Positions 19,027-31,239 of a stretch of DNA of 64,000 nucleotides are shown here, piece after piece. The stretch's first letter is position 1. Each line of letters begins with the position of its first letter. The DNA is from Diphasiastrum complanatum (Eukaryota; Streptophyta; Lycopodiopsida; Lycopodiales; Lycopodiaceae): assembly GCA_029204225.1 (NCBI GenBank), contig CM055113.1, positions 33,257,011 through 33,321,010 of the forward strand, in the 5' to 3' direction. The position numbers and the translations under genes are program-made. Below the pieces are notes generated by a model, which ran no database searches, was not told the DNA's origin, and was given only the letters and a program-made list of their open reading frames with translations.

Positions 19027-20735
19027 ATGGATAGGAGAAAGCAGACCAGGAGGGACTTCTTCTCTCCTGGCTCATCCTCAGCCCCTACGGTGGCCATTAC
19101 CCCTCCTGCTAGACATAGAACGCGCAACCGCAGTAGGTGGCTCTCTGAGATACACAAGTACCAGAGATCAACTGCGATGTTGATCCCAAGGGTTCCATTC
19201 TACCGTGCTGTCCGAAACATAACAAGAAATGATCTCGGACAGCTGGTCAGATTTACACCCAATGCTCTTCAGTGTCTTCAGGAGGCTGCTGAAGATTACC
19301 TTAGTCTTTTTTTTGAAGATTCATTTTTGCTTGCCATTCATTCCAAGAGAGTCACAATAATGCCCAAGGATTTTCAGCTCCTGATGAGAATGAGGGATAG
19401 GTTCTGTAGGTTGCACGTATCTCAGCCTTCTGCTCCCAGGCCAACACCTGTAGATAGGACTGATCTTCCTATGAAGCGTCCTACGAAGCAGAGTGCCCCC
19501 AAGAGGGCTCCAAAGAAAGCAAAGATCGTAGACACCACAGATTTTGTGAAATCTGACCAGGAATCAATTGTAGATAACGTTGTTGTTGATAATGTTGTAA
19601 ATATAGCTACAGTTGTTTTGGATACCGCTTTAATTCCTATAGGTACTACACATCCACCTCCTCCTCCTCCTTCAATTTTTTATACATATATAGATTCAGA
19701 TGAGTATCTTAGATTTGAGAAAGACATATCGGATGCTATTGCTACTCCTTTTTGTTATAGACTAGATGAACTTGATTTTAGTATTAATTTTAGAGTTTTA
19801 GATTGCTTGGATCTCAAAGACAGACGGACTTCTATCAGTGATCCTGTGATAGAGTCCGGGTTGACACTCTTGAAATTTGACATTGCAAGAGATTCATCAA
19901 ACGAGTTGCTGGTGCTGAGTAACTTTCTGCTCCAGGCCTTCAAGGAGAATAATGACACATTGTCACAGTGTCTGACAAGTGAATTCACACCAGCAACAAA
20001 GTATCTGGTCATTCCTTATCATACCAAGTAGGATATATTAAGTGATTCTTCATGTTTTATGCATTAACATTGACATTTTCAATTTAAATAGATCTCAGAA
20101 TTGTCGCTAAAGTACTTTTAATCTTATTTTGCAATGACCACTGGAGTTTACACCTGATCTCTATTAAGAGATCTGTAATTAATAGTATCAAAGGTTTTTG
20201 TGTCAAGATGAATTCGGGGAAAAATACGCATAAGGATGTAGATATATATCTGCCATATTTAAGTGAATATATTCCTACAGATGTTCCCCATTCCGTGGAC
20301 TGGGAGATCATGAGTTTGGAGGTAAACTCTATCTTTCTTAATAGCATGTTGAAATCAGTATTCTAATGTAATTATTTCATTCTTATTCATTCTGTTTCAT
20401 AATTGATTTCTTTTGTGCTGAATTATTTTGCAGGCACCACAGCAAAATGATTCATTCAGAGTGGTTCAACCTTCAGGAAGATGTTGATATTTCTAAAGTA
20501 ATAAATTCTATTTATTCTTACTTTTGGAATCATGATTAGTTTTCTATTTTGTTGATGTTTTTAGCCATTACTAATACATGAATGTTCTATTTTGCAGTTT
20601 ACACTTCCTGAGTACACATCAAGCCAGGTGTACAGATTCAAACAAGAAATCATGCTAAGTATAGTGGCTAGGGCAAGGCTTCAGCCTCCCCATATTGATG
20701 ATGGTGCAAAGGATGATGTAGTAGTACTAAATTAA
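19027..20735 (+). CDS. C1: histone H3-fold protein fused to Ulp1/C48-like protease domain
   Basis: Exon 1 (19027-20027) starts at an ATG. Residues about 31-126 align without large gaps to histone H3 from the alphaN helix to the C-terminus: WLSEIHKYQRSTAMLIPRVP, NALQCLQEAAEDYLSLFFED, AIHSKRVTIMPKDFQLL. The N-tail lacks the H3 K4/K9 sequence, and loop 1 is one residue longer than in H3. A basic linker and PPPPPP (about 209) lead to a C48-like region: TKYLVIPYHTK, then across a 71-nt intron FCNDHWSLHLISIKRSVINS (exon 20099-20321, catalytic-type His at 20139), then APQQNDS (exon 20434-20497), then YTSSQVYRFKQEIMLSI (exon 20598-20735). The Asp of the triad is Asn, and the D-C-G segment is missing. 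Exon 3 has 64 nt where a multiple of 3 is needed, so the protease part is dead while the H3 part is open. Confidence 0.65.
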
Positions 20736-20989
20736 GATCAGAACATATATAGATAGCATAGAAAAAAAATACATGTATAGAATTCATAGTTAAATATACA
20801 TTTATATCAAATGCTGCTCCATTTTGTGAATTTGGGAGCACAAAATACATGTATTGATGCCCAACTTGGGCTTTCATTTATTGAATGAAAGAGTGTATAC
20901 ACAGATTTCTACTAAAGTTTATTTGAATCTATTGCTCTCCCACAATGGTGATTGTTGTAGGTAGATCTTTGCAGCACGTTATCAGCTCC

Positions 20990-21965
20990 CGTCTTTTTCA
21001 CATCTGTGACATGACAAATATTAGTGAATGTGCAATTGTAAATCATGACATTGTCTATTATTTTGTTCTATTTTGACATGGCAATAAACATAAAGTACTT
21101 ACGAGTCTTCCGTTGATGATAAATCTGAAATATGTTGGTAGATTGGTTTGTAATAGCATGAGCTCTGTTCTGATAAAATCAAGCTTCCAATGTTCTTCCA
21201 CCTCAACCATAGTAAAATATTCCTCATTGTAGATAATGCTTATTTCCATTCGGTTTGTGTGACCATTTAGTTCAAAGTCTTGATCCAGTGGTAGCCATGT
21301 AACTTCAATTCTCTTGTATCTCTAGTAGCTAAATGTGAGATTGAGCATTTGCTTTTCGATATGATAATGAAAGATCATTAAGGACTTTTTAATCCTGCAT
21401 TCTATGTCATTATTTGTTTTACTATCCCAGCCTTGATCCATGAGATCTGACAAAGTCTCATCTAATAAATCCTTGCAAACAAATAAAGTTGGTGTCCTAC
21501 AAACACTAGCACTCAAGAAAAAATCAGCAAATATATGTAATGAGATAAACCAACTTAAGTGAACAATTTTTGAGCCTGTGCTTATCTTCATAGCATTTCT
21601 AATATCAATTAGTAGCTTGCATCTGAAGGATTAAAAAACAATGCTGTCAGGAGTAGGTCACATATCACTTTGAAAACTAGGCAATGGAATTGCTTCGAGC
21701 TTGCCAAAACCTCCATCTATTTGTGGCGTATATAAATATTCATAAAAATAGATACCACATTCTGCAAGTTCCTTTGGACTTCTTCCTCTGTATTGCAGCT
21801 TTCCAACATCAGAGTGAATCACGTCTAATATTCCTAAAAGTGATTGTGCGGGCTCCCATTCACTTATGCATGATGGATATAAATCTGAAAGAAAATAAAT
21901 CATAATCTGAAGAGCATCAATAAAGGAAATCACCTATGATTGTTGTAGAGTGCATATGTTTTGAT
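20990..21965 (-). CDS. D1: conserved element protein of unknown function
   Basis: Minus-strand exons read DLYPSCISEWEPAQSLLGIL, SDVGKLQYRGRSPKELAECG, IYFYEYLYTPQIDGGFGKLE (21870-21690), then KLLIDIRNAMKISTGSKIVH (21630-21570), TPTLFVCKDLLDETLSDLMD, WDSK and MIFHYHIEKQMLNLTFSY (to 21322). The last piece is RMEISIIYNEEY to LPTYFRFIINGRL (21260-21107), ending at a GTAAGT donor. Every block aligns in order with D2 at 28.6-29.5 kb; GSKxV, WDSK, YHIxxQ and MEISI/VEISI stand out. The terminal approx. 60 residues have the strand-helix-strand look of a beta-grasp (ubiquitin-like) domain, which is a guess from pattern alone. A stop after NLTFSY suggests one point of damage. No known family is recognised. 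Confidence 0.5.
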
Positions 21966-22274
21966 ATACTTACAATTACATTTTTTATGATCATGAGGAT
22001 TGATATCATGTACTTTGATTTCTGAATGCATATATACATGTTGCACTATGTAAGGTATCTATTATCATAACGTGTCTCCGTATTATCATGATGTAGTAGT
22101 AGGTAATGGCCATTGGGAGGGCCATTATCATGAATAATTTGGGACTCGGCAACGGTGGTGAACCGGATTATTTTTGGTAATGGTCCGACCAATGGACCAT
22201 TATTTCAAGTAATTAAGGATTCGGTTATTTCTCTATCTCCCTCACAGGCGCTCTTTATCCCTCTCTCTCTCTCC

Positions 22275-22542
22275 TGCTGCATTGTCCTCTCTCTCTCTCT
22301 CTCTCTCTCTCTCTCTCTCTCTCTCTCTCTCTCTCTCTCTCTCTCTCTCTCTCTCTCTCTCTCTCTCTCTCTCTCTCTCTCTCTCTCTCTCTCTCTCTCT
22401 CTCTCTCTCTCTCTCTCTCTCTCTCTCTCTCCTGGTGCGTTGTTCCTCTTCTCTTCTAATGCGATGTCCCTCTTCTCTCTCCTGCTGCACTAATCTCTCT
22501 CTCTCTCTCTCTCTCTCTCTCTCTCTCTCTCTCTCTCTCTCT
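22275..22542. repeat. Long (TC)n microsatellites
   Basis: An almost pure CT tract of about 155 bp (22276-22431) is followed by a degenerate CT-rich spacer and a second pure tract (22496-22542). The poly-Ser/Leu and Arg/Glu ORFs across it come from the repeat. Confidence 0.95.
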
Positions 22543-30130: not shown

Positions 30131-30134
30131 CTCG

Positions 30135-30623
30135 ATGAGAGAGAGGCGGGGGAGCAGAAGTAGAAATAGAAGTCGCAGCCCAATAGCGACTCAGGATGAT
30201 CCGGCCACTCAACATGAAGCTGAGGAGGAAATGGTCCACACAGCAGCTGTACAGGAGCAGCAGCAGCAGCAAGAAGAGCAGCCGCATCAGCAGCAAGTAC
30301 AACAAAGCCCTTCCCTGACGACAACCGAACAGGAAGAAACAATGCAGTTTCTGGATCAGGAGCTTGCGACATTGGGTGAGTTGCCGGTTCTGTACGATGC
30401 TTTCTTCGACCCATTTCCAGCAGCAATGGGCATGGACACGGCGGATTTGAGTATATCGGGTGACACCACACCCACCGTGTCACCCCCAAGTCACGGCCTG
30501 ATGATGGGTCTGATGATGTTGTTGCTGGTGGGTGGTTCTGATGAGGGCACCCCGATGTCGCACACAACAAGGATGAAACAGAAGGCGACACACAGATGGT
30601 CTGGGAGAGGAGCACACAAGTGA
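30135..30623 (+). CDS. Possible 5' exon of C2, Gln/Arg-rich
   Basis: An open 162-codon plus-strand frame begins RGSRSRNRSRSPIATQDD, continues through Gln runs (QEQQQQQEEQ) and ends in a basic RWSGRGAHK. It lies directly upstream of the H3-fold frame but in a different phase, so it would need an intron with an acceptor such as GACAG at about 30648-30652. Low-complexity Arg/Ser and Gln tracts suit a disordered N-terminal tail of a chromatin protein. It may also be a separate or decayed ORF. Confidence 0.35.
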   Translation: MRERRGSRSRNRSRSPIATQDDPATQHEAEEEMVHTAAVQEQQQQQEEQPHQQQVQQSPSLTTTEQEETMQFLDQELATLGELPVLYDAFFDPFPAAMGMDTADLSISGDTTPTVSPPSHGLMMGLMMLLLVGGSDEGTPMSHTTRMKQKATHRWSGRGAHK

Positions 30624-30652
30624 AAGAGAAAGAATCCTAGGCTTTGCACCAA

Positions 30653-31239
30653 AGTGACAGAATCTTGCTGCTCAACACCCATCACCACTGCCCACACCGC
30701 CTCCACCACCTCCACCTCCACCTCCACCTCCACCTCCACCTCCACCTCCACCTCCACCACCTCCTCCTCCATCACCATCTCCACCACCACCACCTCCACC
30801 TCCGCCTCCACCTCCTCCACCTGCAACTTCTGCCACAGCTGGCCCAAGTAGGATCGTAGAGCATGGTAAGAGTAGGCCAGCCCCTCGTGCAGCACCTTGG
30901 GCTGGAAAGGAGCTCCGCAGGATGCAACCACCACCACCTCGACTACGTAGGAAGCGCATGATCGCAAAGTGGCTCCAAGATATGAGGAGGTATCAGAAGT
31001 CTGTGAAATTTCTGATACCTAGGGCCCCATTTGTGTGGCTTGTAAAAGAAATAATCGATGAATTTTCCTTGGGGAACAGAGTTACGGTAGATGTTGTGTC
31101 CGCGACACAAAAGTCTGCGAAAATGTACCTAACACAACTTTTTGAGGACTCATTTTTGTGTGCAGTACACGGAAAGAGAGTCACAATACTCCCGAAGGAT
31201 CTCCACCTAGCTAGAAGGCTAAGGAGAGAGCGCAATTAA
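30653..31239 (+). CDS. C2: polyproline-tailed histone H3-fold protein
   Basis: One open frame runs from a probable splice acceptor at about 30652 to a stop at 31237-31239. It begins [13 protein letters not shown], continues as a nearly pure Pro tract of about 45 residues with SPSP in it, then a basic linker, then a complete H3-type fold: [68 protein letters not shown]. Like H3 it ends a few residues after ARR.RxER. It shares WL, LIPRxPF and FEDSFL with C1 where canonical H3 has AL, LIRKLPF and FEDTNL. The LIP form also occurs in plant CENH3. The loop 1 length equals H3, and tail lysines are absent. No protease domain follows in this copy. The frame is intact. Confidence 0.65.

Follow-up and report, generated by a model that had tools for sequence, protein, structure and literature searches.

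Two transposon families of Diphasiastrum complanatum carry a diverged histone H3 gene that keeps lysine 4 and replaces lysine 9

Results

Elements and genes in the window

The window, meaning the whole 64,000-nucleotide stretch of contig CM055113.1 that was analysed, contains copies of C1 and C2, two related families of DNA transposons that end in terminal inverted repeats (TIRs) and carry four genes, T, B, D and an H3 variant (Table 1). T, D and H3 of C1 have homologues in C2, and so does the C-terminal part of B, with a B1c-B2b match at E 6e-11. Both window copies are decayed; matching of the C1 copy stops at about 22048, and the C2 copy lacks its left end, being cut off at 28414-28467, its right TIR ending at 34781. 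A third divergent family, C3, seen in one copy, has the same H3(+)-B(-) layout as C1 and C2. In relatives, T carries the motifs KLDE, D, CxxC, H(4)H and QGMEKSH, and we infer which T residues would be catalytic. No credible Pfam match was found for the T, B and D pieces, nor any credible PDB match for the T and D pieces, and the viral contigs scanned with a T piece gave no match. By eye, D has a BAH-like look.

Table 1. Positions of the C1 and C2 elements, their genes and a relic within the window
Feature	Position	Strand	Evidence and remarks
C1-family element	13318..22049	.	right end lost; aligned with L020 and L019
C1 left TIR, CATTAGAGGAGTTCTCAATATCAAAAAGACCC	13318..13349	+	window sequence; L020 has this repeat at either end
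T of C1, DDE-like transposase, several frames (decayed)	13882..16546	+	ends approximate; tblastn 13960-16468, ORFs
B of C1, conserved protein, fold without assignment	16680..18229	-	tblastn
H3-variant gene of C1, unbroken 334-aa ORF	19027..20031	+	PF00125 Histone, E 3.3e-27, residues 25-123
H3 core of C1, residues 36-123	19132..19395	+	
D of C1, conserved protein, truncated	21061..22049	-	tblastn; D1-D2 homology
C2-family element	28414..34781	.	left end lost, internal deletions; aligned with L011 and L024
D of C2	28414..29422	+	tblastn
H3 gene start of C2, MSEEM-AWTKQTTR-DP	30047..30160	+	K4 kept, D at position 9
H3 core ORF of C2, 105 aa	30922..31239	+	PF00125, E 1.1e-21; frame open from 30658
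B of C2 (decayed)	31417..32241	-	tblastn
T of C2, transposase (decayed)	32486..34366	-	tblastn, ORFs
C2 right TIR	34745..34781	-	1,609 genomic sites, against 0 for a control
Relic, N-terminal part of T, more distant family	61300..61692	+	tblastn 52%

The initial annotation had described an H3-type histone fold in both elements, and this is borne out by Pfam Histone matches for C1 (E 3e-27) and C2 (E 1e-21); the PF00125 fold, nearest to H3, fits both genes by sequence, and the 60 best PDB rows for C1 were all H3 or histone-domain chains. The residues WL, LIPRxPF and FEDSF, reported as common to C1 and C2, are indeed present in both. The location given for the C2 gene, about 30950-31239, held for the fold and for the end at 31239, while its start proved only approximate, with frame 1 from 30950 full of stops. 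The H3-fold observation is larger than first described. The C1 protein begins with an H3-like tail, MDRRKQTRRD, followed by the core and by a basic and acidic C-terminal extension. In the window copy of C2, the reading frame is lost 38 codons after the start and is broken before the core.

Several core residues of H3 are kept in both families (R69, R83, K115-T118, K122, as well as H113, D123, L126 and R129), and R63 is Pro in both. From a list of 26 DNA-contact residues, 11 are kept in both families, which is about the rate at other positions (20/52). AlphaFold models built on two-row alignments had poor pLDDT values of 35.5 for full-length C1 and 58.4 for the C1 core.

Ends, linkage and distribution in the genome

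Seven copies with both ends were 6.4-9.0 kb long with TIRs, and the termini read CATTAG..CTAATG, i.e. CA..TG. None of these seven copies showed a target-site duplication (TSD), as their flanks share at most 1 base, with the exception of L012; this copy is flanked by CA on both sides, and its three unoccupied sites already hold CACA, so that 0 bp was duplicated. The elements occur scattered across many large contigs. Same-strand T-H3 pairs less than 10 kb apart numbered at least 21 among the matches listed, compared to 0.41 expected, a count that rests on the best 120 of 9,417 and 150 of 12,212 matches and in which some pairs may be assembly duplicates.

For closer comparison, 22 copies were examined, comprising the two window copies and 20 others hand-picked, mostly with open frames, from 150 scored of 6,325 candidates; this sample is not random, and the fetched flanks were of unequal length. 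At least one of T, B and D lies near H3 in 21 of the 22, in agreement with the neighbourhood proposed from the window, and the one copy that has none of them nearby, L026, is a 2-kb piece of this same element. Of the 16 C2-type copies, one (L010) has an H3 ORF of 416 aa that runs unbroken from tail to core; this copy is without T. In none of the sampled copies were T, B, D and H3 all shown to be intact.

The tail keeps K4 and replaces K9

In all sampled copies (16/16 C2-type and 6/6 C1-type), K4 is kept and position 9 is Asp instead of Lys. The exact sequence ARTKQTAR is present in 12 of the 16 C2-type copies, and the C3 protein starts with MARTKQTAREP; in C1, Asp-Arg-Arg replaces Ala-Arg-Thr at the tip. 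A degenerate MARTKQTAR[D/E] pattern had 108 genome matches in at least four codon-distinct versions, compared to 0 for the control. A fourth H3 type has Ala at position 9. The H3 tail is retained at its tip only, the remainder being not alignable and the K14/K27/K36 region not recognisable; between tail and core, a segment can be recognised in C2, L056 and C3. Because the first ATG of C2 places MSEE ahead of MARTKQTAR, its K4 would stand at position 4 only with use of the second ATG or removal of the leader.

Ancestry and selection

Trees with H3 and CENH3 rows as outgroups placed the C1 and C2 H3 proteins on one side with a support of 84/88, which is not decisive, and trees forcing C1 or C2 to group with ordinary H3 were rejected (p 0.008 and 0.038). 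These rejected constraint trees disfavour two independent captures of host H3, and the initial proposal of descent within the element is supported. The H3-variant gene is an old and inherited component of these transposons. Among the host genes, the H3.3-like L050 and L051 both have H87 and L90, and L051 also has T31 and Y41, which we take to be plant H3.3 residues.

Between C1 subfamilies, dN/dS of H3 was 0.17, compared to 0.78 within them, and fixed differences in C1 (15 synonymous to 5 replacement) contrasted with within-subfamily changes (15 to 38; p 4.5e-4). The H3 variant has been selectively maintained in the C1 family. Within C2, dN/dS was 0.39 for the H3 core and 0.36 for D2b, i.e. 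the core was no more constrained, and the nine tail codons had 2 synonymous and 6 replacement changes within the 16 copies. Compared by eye with two host H3 genes only, the C2 tail differed synonymously at 8/8 codons (L001) and 7/8 codons (L004), with 0 replacements.

Discussion

A transposon-encoded H3 that can be marked at K4 and not silenced at K9 would be the element's own anti-silencing histone, a reading for and against which we hold the case to be evenly poised. The variant would be made in the host nucleus, pair with host H4 and enter nucleosomes, either at the element and in its vicinity or elsewhere in chromatin. Because K4 is kept, K9 is acidic and the K14/K27/K36 region is unrecognisable, variant nucleosomes could carry the active K4 mark and could not carry H3K9me2 or H3K27 marks; in C2 and C3, K4 would be offered in its whole A1-R2-T3-K4-Q5-T6-A7-R8 context. 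Such nucleosomes would resist the silencing loop of H3K9me2 and DNA methylation. An activating function may in addition come from the acidic stretch, rich in Phe and Leu, to which the histone is fused (in C2 it lies between tail and core). That the nucleosomes would be stable is not assured, because R63 is Pro and only 11 of the 26 DNA contacts are kept.

Other roles for the gene have to be weighed against this proposal. The H3-fold protein could pair with a partner of histone fold, H4 or some other, and tether the transposase to nucleosomes, so that insertion sites would be chosen or opened through it and the loss of K9 would be a by-product; that T, B, D and H3 repeatedly occur as neighbours fits such a cofactor, as does the joining of the core to long extra domains (in the 416-aa C2 protein, the core begins at about residue 320). 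We think this unlikely, as it leaves unexplained why K4, within the whole ARTKQTAR in C2 and C3, is kept together with an acidic position 9 in C1, C2 and C3. A soluble H3 mimic that acts outside chromatin, occupying H4, histone chaperones or the readers and erasers of K4 tails, would agree with a retained K4 tip and modestly retained DNA contacts (11/26); the conservation of R83, R116, T118 and several H3-H3' residues makes such a decoy very improbable.

Plant CENH3 is likewise a diverged H3 variant, and the element genes have in common with maize and Arabidopsis CENH3 the LIP.APF(V)R- and TA[DE]A-like residues; the best trees join them to plant CENH3 with weak support (64/91 and 68/89). Descent from CENH3, with an element that behaves like centromeric chromatin or targets it, nevertheless seems quite improbable. 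Identities of the element proteins are slightly higher to ordinary H3 (50-52) than to plant CENH3 (43-50), and an insertion in loop 1 like that of CENH3 is lacking (0 residues in C2, 1 in C1). The angiosperm CENH3 tail reads ARTKH, whereas that of C2 is ARTKQTAR, and the element genes adjoin a transposase in multiple copies dispersed over many large contigs.

In fungi, chance amplification of a captured host H3 without function for the element has been proposed for hAT transduplication in Pseudocercospora fijiensis and Pyrenophora tritici-repentis (PMC6710886). The hAT elements of P. fijiensis that carry an H3-like gene are 9.5-9.9 kb at full length and account for 471 repeat elements, with all H3 copies except the host original inactivated by RIP, and P. 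tritici-repentis has 26 H3 copies from a recent event, of which 23 are apparently functional (PMC6710886). As here, these are TIR DNA transposons with an H3-like gene; they have a hAT transposase, a 20-bp TIR and an 8-bp TSD (PMC6710886), whereas in our elements T has no hAT match, no TSD was found, and a diverged H3 with K9 replaced occurs in several families, under selection in C1. A mere passenger would be extremely improbable here, being disfavoured by the selection evidence, namely the dN/dS of 0.17 and the contrast of fixed and within-subfamily changes in C1, together with the presence of H3 in families with divergent T, B and D and a tail kept despite near-complete synonymous change.

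Returning to the anti-silencing reading, the VANC anti-silencing proteins from VANDAL elements of Arabidopsis act in a sequence-specific manner, are not histones and bring about loss of DNA methylation (PMC5735166). A plant transposon gene counters epigenetic silencing in that case and is proposed to do so in ours; our elements are not MuDR/VANDAL-borne, the T pieces having no credible Pfam match and hence none to MULE transposase. DNA transposons are described as carrying TET/JBP dioxygenases in fungi or SET methyltransferases in oomycetes (PMC12730594); these chromatin-modifying genes encode enzymes that act on marks, whereas here the histone substrate would be supplied. CMCT (CACTA-like) elements are defined by a DDE transposase with C(2)C and H(3-4)H between the second D and the E (PMC12730594), and our elements resemble them in their 5'-CA..TG-3' ends and in the T motif order D, D, C(2)C, H(4)H, E of both families. 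They differ from the CMCT described there, which have a TSD of 2-5 bp, in that no TSD was found and T has no Pfam match. A selfish element encoding its own histone is also known from Medusavirus and Melbournevirus (PMC11500106); unlike giant viruses, of which Medusavirus encodes all four core histones, ours is a chromosomal transposon in which H3 was the only histone noticed.

The elements may represent an undescribed superfamily of plant DNA transposons with a private H3 as a core gene, which would form element-specific, K4-competent, K9-blind chromatin, possibly with an activation domain, on which the host could not write its main transposon-silencing mark; we put this forward tentatively, as possible but somewhat short of probable. 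Selection in C1 and the presence of H3 in several divergent families set these genes apart from the recent fungal captures. Among the open questions about transposons, their continued escape from H3K9 methylation is a central one, and an element that supplies a histone without the silenced lysine would give it a direct and testable answer. In addition, a K9-less element H3 would be a natural experiment on which residues of the H3 tail matter.

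Both large elements encode an H3-type histone

Both terminal inverted repeat (TIR) DNA transposon families with decayed copies in the window, C1 and C2, encode an H3-type histone fold, as the initial annotation had proposed; the C1 protein and the C2 core open reading frame matched the Pfam core-histone model (E 3.3e-27 and 1.1e-21), and both proteins matched PDB histone H3 chains. The C1 reading frame is unbroken in the window, and the C2 gene is damaged, losing its frame 38 codons after its start (MSEEM-AWTKQTTR-DP) with the core left open.

Features of the window and of the genome assembly (G000)
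Feature	Position	Strand	Remark
C1 H3 gene	window 19027-20031	+	334 aa
ORF between the two elements	window 24759-25178	-	139 aa; resembles Pfam PF05526 (Rhodococcus equi virulence-associated protein fold), 39.1 bits
C2 H3 gene start	window 30047
C2 H3 core ORF	window 30922-31239	+
Relic of N-terminal part of transposase T	window 61300-61692	+	more distant family
Stretch adjoining the T relic	window 61757-62384		related to target site of copy L023
C3 element (L049)	C13:7457800		third, divergent family
Fourth H3-like type (L053/L054)	G000:C13 ~7460062		broken, C1-like, directly beside C3 element
Opposite-orientation C2 repeats ~1 kb apart	G000:C1:67871296-67872435
Opposite-orientation C2 repeats ~1 kb apart	C4:15745948-15746971
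Tail-like start, L055	G000:C1:21316350-21317349		MARTKQTARDPRIMHLMHEHALRHI start, then minisatellite-like KGQGLRAKG repeat

A histone search of the 1.74 Gb assembly produced 6,325 initial candidates, and the best 150 were scored. Thirteen of these reached 163.7-165 bits, and the eight fetched were ordinary H3; the remaining matches listed scored 82.8-109.5 bits, and 20 loci fetched from this lower range, 10 kb each, proved to be C1-type (5/20) or C2-type (15/20). Of three further loci from that list, L049 belongs to a third transposon type (C3), and L050 and L051 carry exons of H3.3-like genes of the host. When the C1 protein was searched and the best 120 of 9,417 candidates scored, all 120 had E 1.8e-168 or better, and 27 of them were stop-free by eye, including the window's copy.

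In a 30-row tree, the C1 (6) and C2 (16) H3 sequences lay together on one side of a branch with support of 84/88, and constraining C1 or C2 to group with ordinary H3 was rejected (p 0.008 and 0.038), which bears out the earlier suggestion of descent within the element rather than two captures from the host. With inclusion of C3, in which the conserved element protein B (42%, E 2e-51) adjoins H3 in the C2 arrangement, support for the transposon side was 87/96. Judged from these sequences, the element H3 may derive from ordinary H3 or from CENH3. Grouping with plant CENH3 was borderline for C2 (p 0.047) and not rejected for C1 (p 0.11), and all transposon rows plus plant CENH3 form one side at 64/91. 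The tree also contains CENH3, CENP-A, yeast and human sequences, and its branches are long.

Gene arrangement and element ends

Each family carries four genes, namely H3, the DDE-like transposase T and the conserved proteins B and D, laid out as D+ H3+ B- T- in C2 and T+ B- H3+ D- in C1. With both layouts read in the T-to-D direction, B and H3 hold the same positions but are each flipped in one relative to the other, which preserves the order of the genes and alters their strands. BLASTP between the families gave 38-52% over the main pieces of T (23% in one), 29-35% for D, 47% for H3, and 31% for B, confined to the C-terminal part (E 6e-11), with no significant likeness among N-terminal B pieces (E 0.19).

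Gene neighbours were scored in 22 copies (20 fetched and two in the window), a gene being called present if the copy covered at least roughly 40% of one reference piece at the proper location. B adjoins H3 in 20/22 copies, and T and D are each near H3 in 17/22 (T inverted in L019, D in L018), with all three present in 13 and at least one in 21. H3 copies standing without T, B or D, which the initial annotation had named as evidence against an element-borne lineage, were represented in this sample by L026 alone, a fragment of the same element that lacks all three. Among listed matches (150 for T and 240 merged H3-like places, from separate lists), 21 T-H3 pairs were no more than 10 kb apart, compared to 0.41 expected under uniform placement; in every pair T lay upstream of H3 on the same strand.

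Copies align over several kb with sharp ends. C2-type termini are a 37-bp inverted repeat, CATTAGGGCCCTTTTTGGACTCAAAAAGGGCCTCTTC, found at both ends of 5/15 C2-type copies (7,946-8,955 bp) and, with one end base changed, of a sixth, L012 (6,404 bp); the C1-type copy L020 has its own inverted repeat at both ends (7,755 bp). The C2 repeat occurs genome-wide at 822 + 787 sites with at most two mismatches (reversed control, 0), and the opposed pairs in the table are probably non-autonomous deletion derivatives. Flanks of the seven two-ended copies showed no target-site duplication except CA/CA in L012; since three homologous unoccupied sites already hold CACA, the L012 insertion duplicated 0 bp, and L023, compared with two more diverged unoccupied relatives, fits a 0-bp duplication too.

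In both families T has the motif order KLDE, D in A[AG]DLK, CxxC, H(4)H, QGMEKSH, and its pieces had no credible Pfam or PDB match. PMC12730594 describes a CMCT clade with the same order (D, D, CxxC, H(4)H, E), ends mostly CA..TG and target-site duplications of 2-5 bp; because of those duplications and the absence of a credible Pfam or PDB match, T was not placed in that clade.

Histone tail, core and selection

The host H3 start is ARTKQTARKSTGG. C2-type proteins start MSEEM-ARTKQTAR-DPR (ARTKQTAR exact in 12/16 copies), with K at position 4 and D at 9 in 16/16; C1-type proteins start (M)DRRKQTRRDFF, with K4 and D9 in 6/6. In C3, MARTKQTAR-EPQ is encoded about 300 bp upstream of the core ORF; the two share a reading frame but are separated by a stop. 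The fourth type has ARAKQTTR-AD. K4 is the sole lysine within the first 40 residues of the window's C1 protein, and in the L010 protein (416 aa) the next lysine is residue 99. By eye, the C2 tail differs synonymously at 8/8 codons from host H3 gene L001, with 0 replacements, and at 7/8 from L004, the second of two host genes compared. A degenerate MARTKQTAR[D/E] pattern, which also admits some Ser codons at Arg positions, had 108 exact genome matches (control, 0), with at least four codon-distinct versions among 100 listed. Two such starts, L055 and L056, run on into ..DPRI; the 1 kb fetched at each revealed no histone core, and L056 retains a frame-shifted C2-like middle segment.

Core residues common to C1 and C2 include K115, R116, V117, T118, K122, R83 and R69, and H113, D123, L126 and R129 of the H3-H3' interface; R63 is P and K79 is absent in both. 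Of the positions compared, both families kept 11/26 DNA-contact and 8/14 interface positions versus 20/52 others, so contacts have been retained at only roughly the rate of the remaining positions.

Between C1 subfamilies (window, L017, L021 versus L019, L020, L026), the H3 tail-plus-core had dS 0.481 and dN 0.080, a ratio of 0.17, compared to 0.78 within subfamilies and 0.33 to 0.91 between subfamilies for other C1 pieces. Fixed differences were 15 synonymous to 5 replacement, against 15:38 within subfamilies (Fisher p 4.5e-4); tail plus linker gave 3:1 against 0:14 (p 0.005), and the core alone 10:4 against 15:22 (p 0.064). Among other C1 protein pieces, this contrast also appeared in B1b (p 0.006) and T1b (p 0.02), and was not found in B1a, B1c or H1c. 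Within C2 copies, dN/dS was 0.39 for the H3 core, 0.36 for the D piece D2b and 0.46-0.82 for other pieces. These patterns are most simply read as conservation of the histone protein in working lineages alongside the decay of dead copies. H3 dS in C1 exceeds that of neighbouring pieces, perhaps through exchange between subfamilies.

Possible role of the element histone

Fungal hAT transposons carrying H3 (PMC6710886), as well as transposon-borne anti-silencing factors or chromatin enzymes (PMC5735166; PMC12730594), have been described. The main text of a 2026 plant gene-capture review (PMC13317346) does not contain the word "histone", and top-ranking literature matches, from a search whose coverage excluded most subscription papers, included no comparable plant element.

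In the mechanism we propose, the element H3 would be translated, enter the nucleus, pair with H4 and be deposited, after which it would receive the K4 mark, resist K9 and K27 marks, and could activate through the acidic segment FLDEELAASGELPILNDSFFDPFPPAMGMD (charge -7). H3K9me2 is used in plant transposon silencing. The change of K9 to an acidic residue in C1, C2 and C3, with K4 kept, is more in keeping with an anti-silencing role than with a neutral relic.
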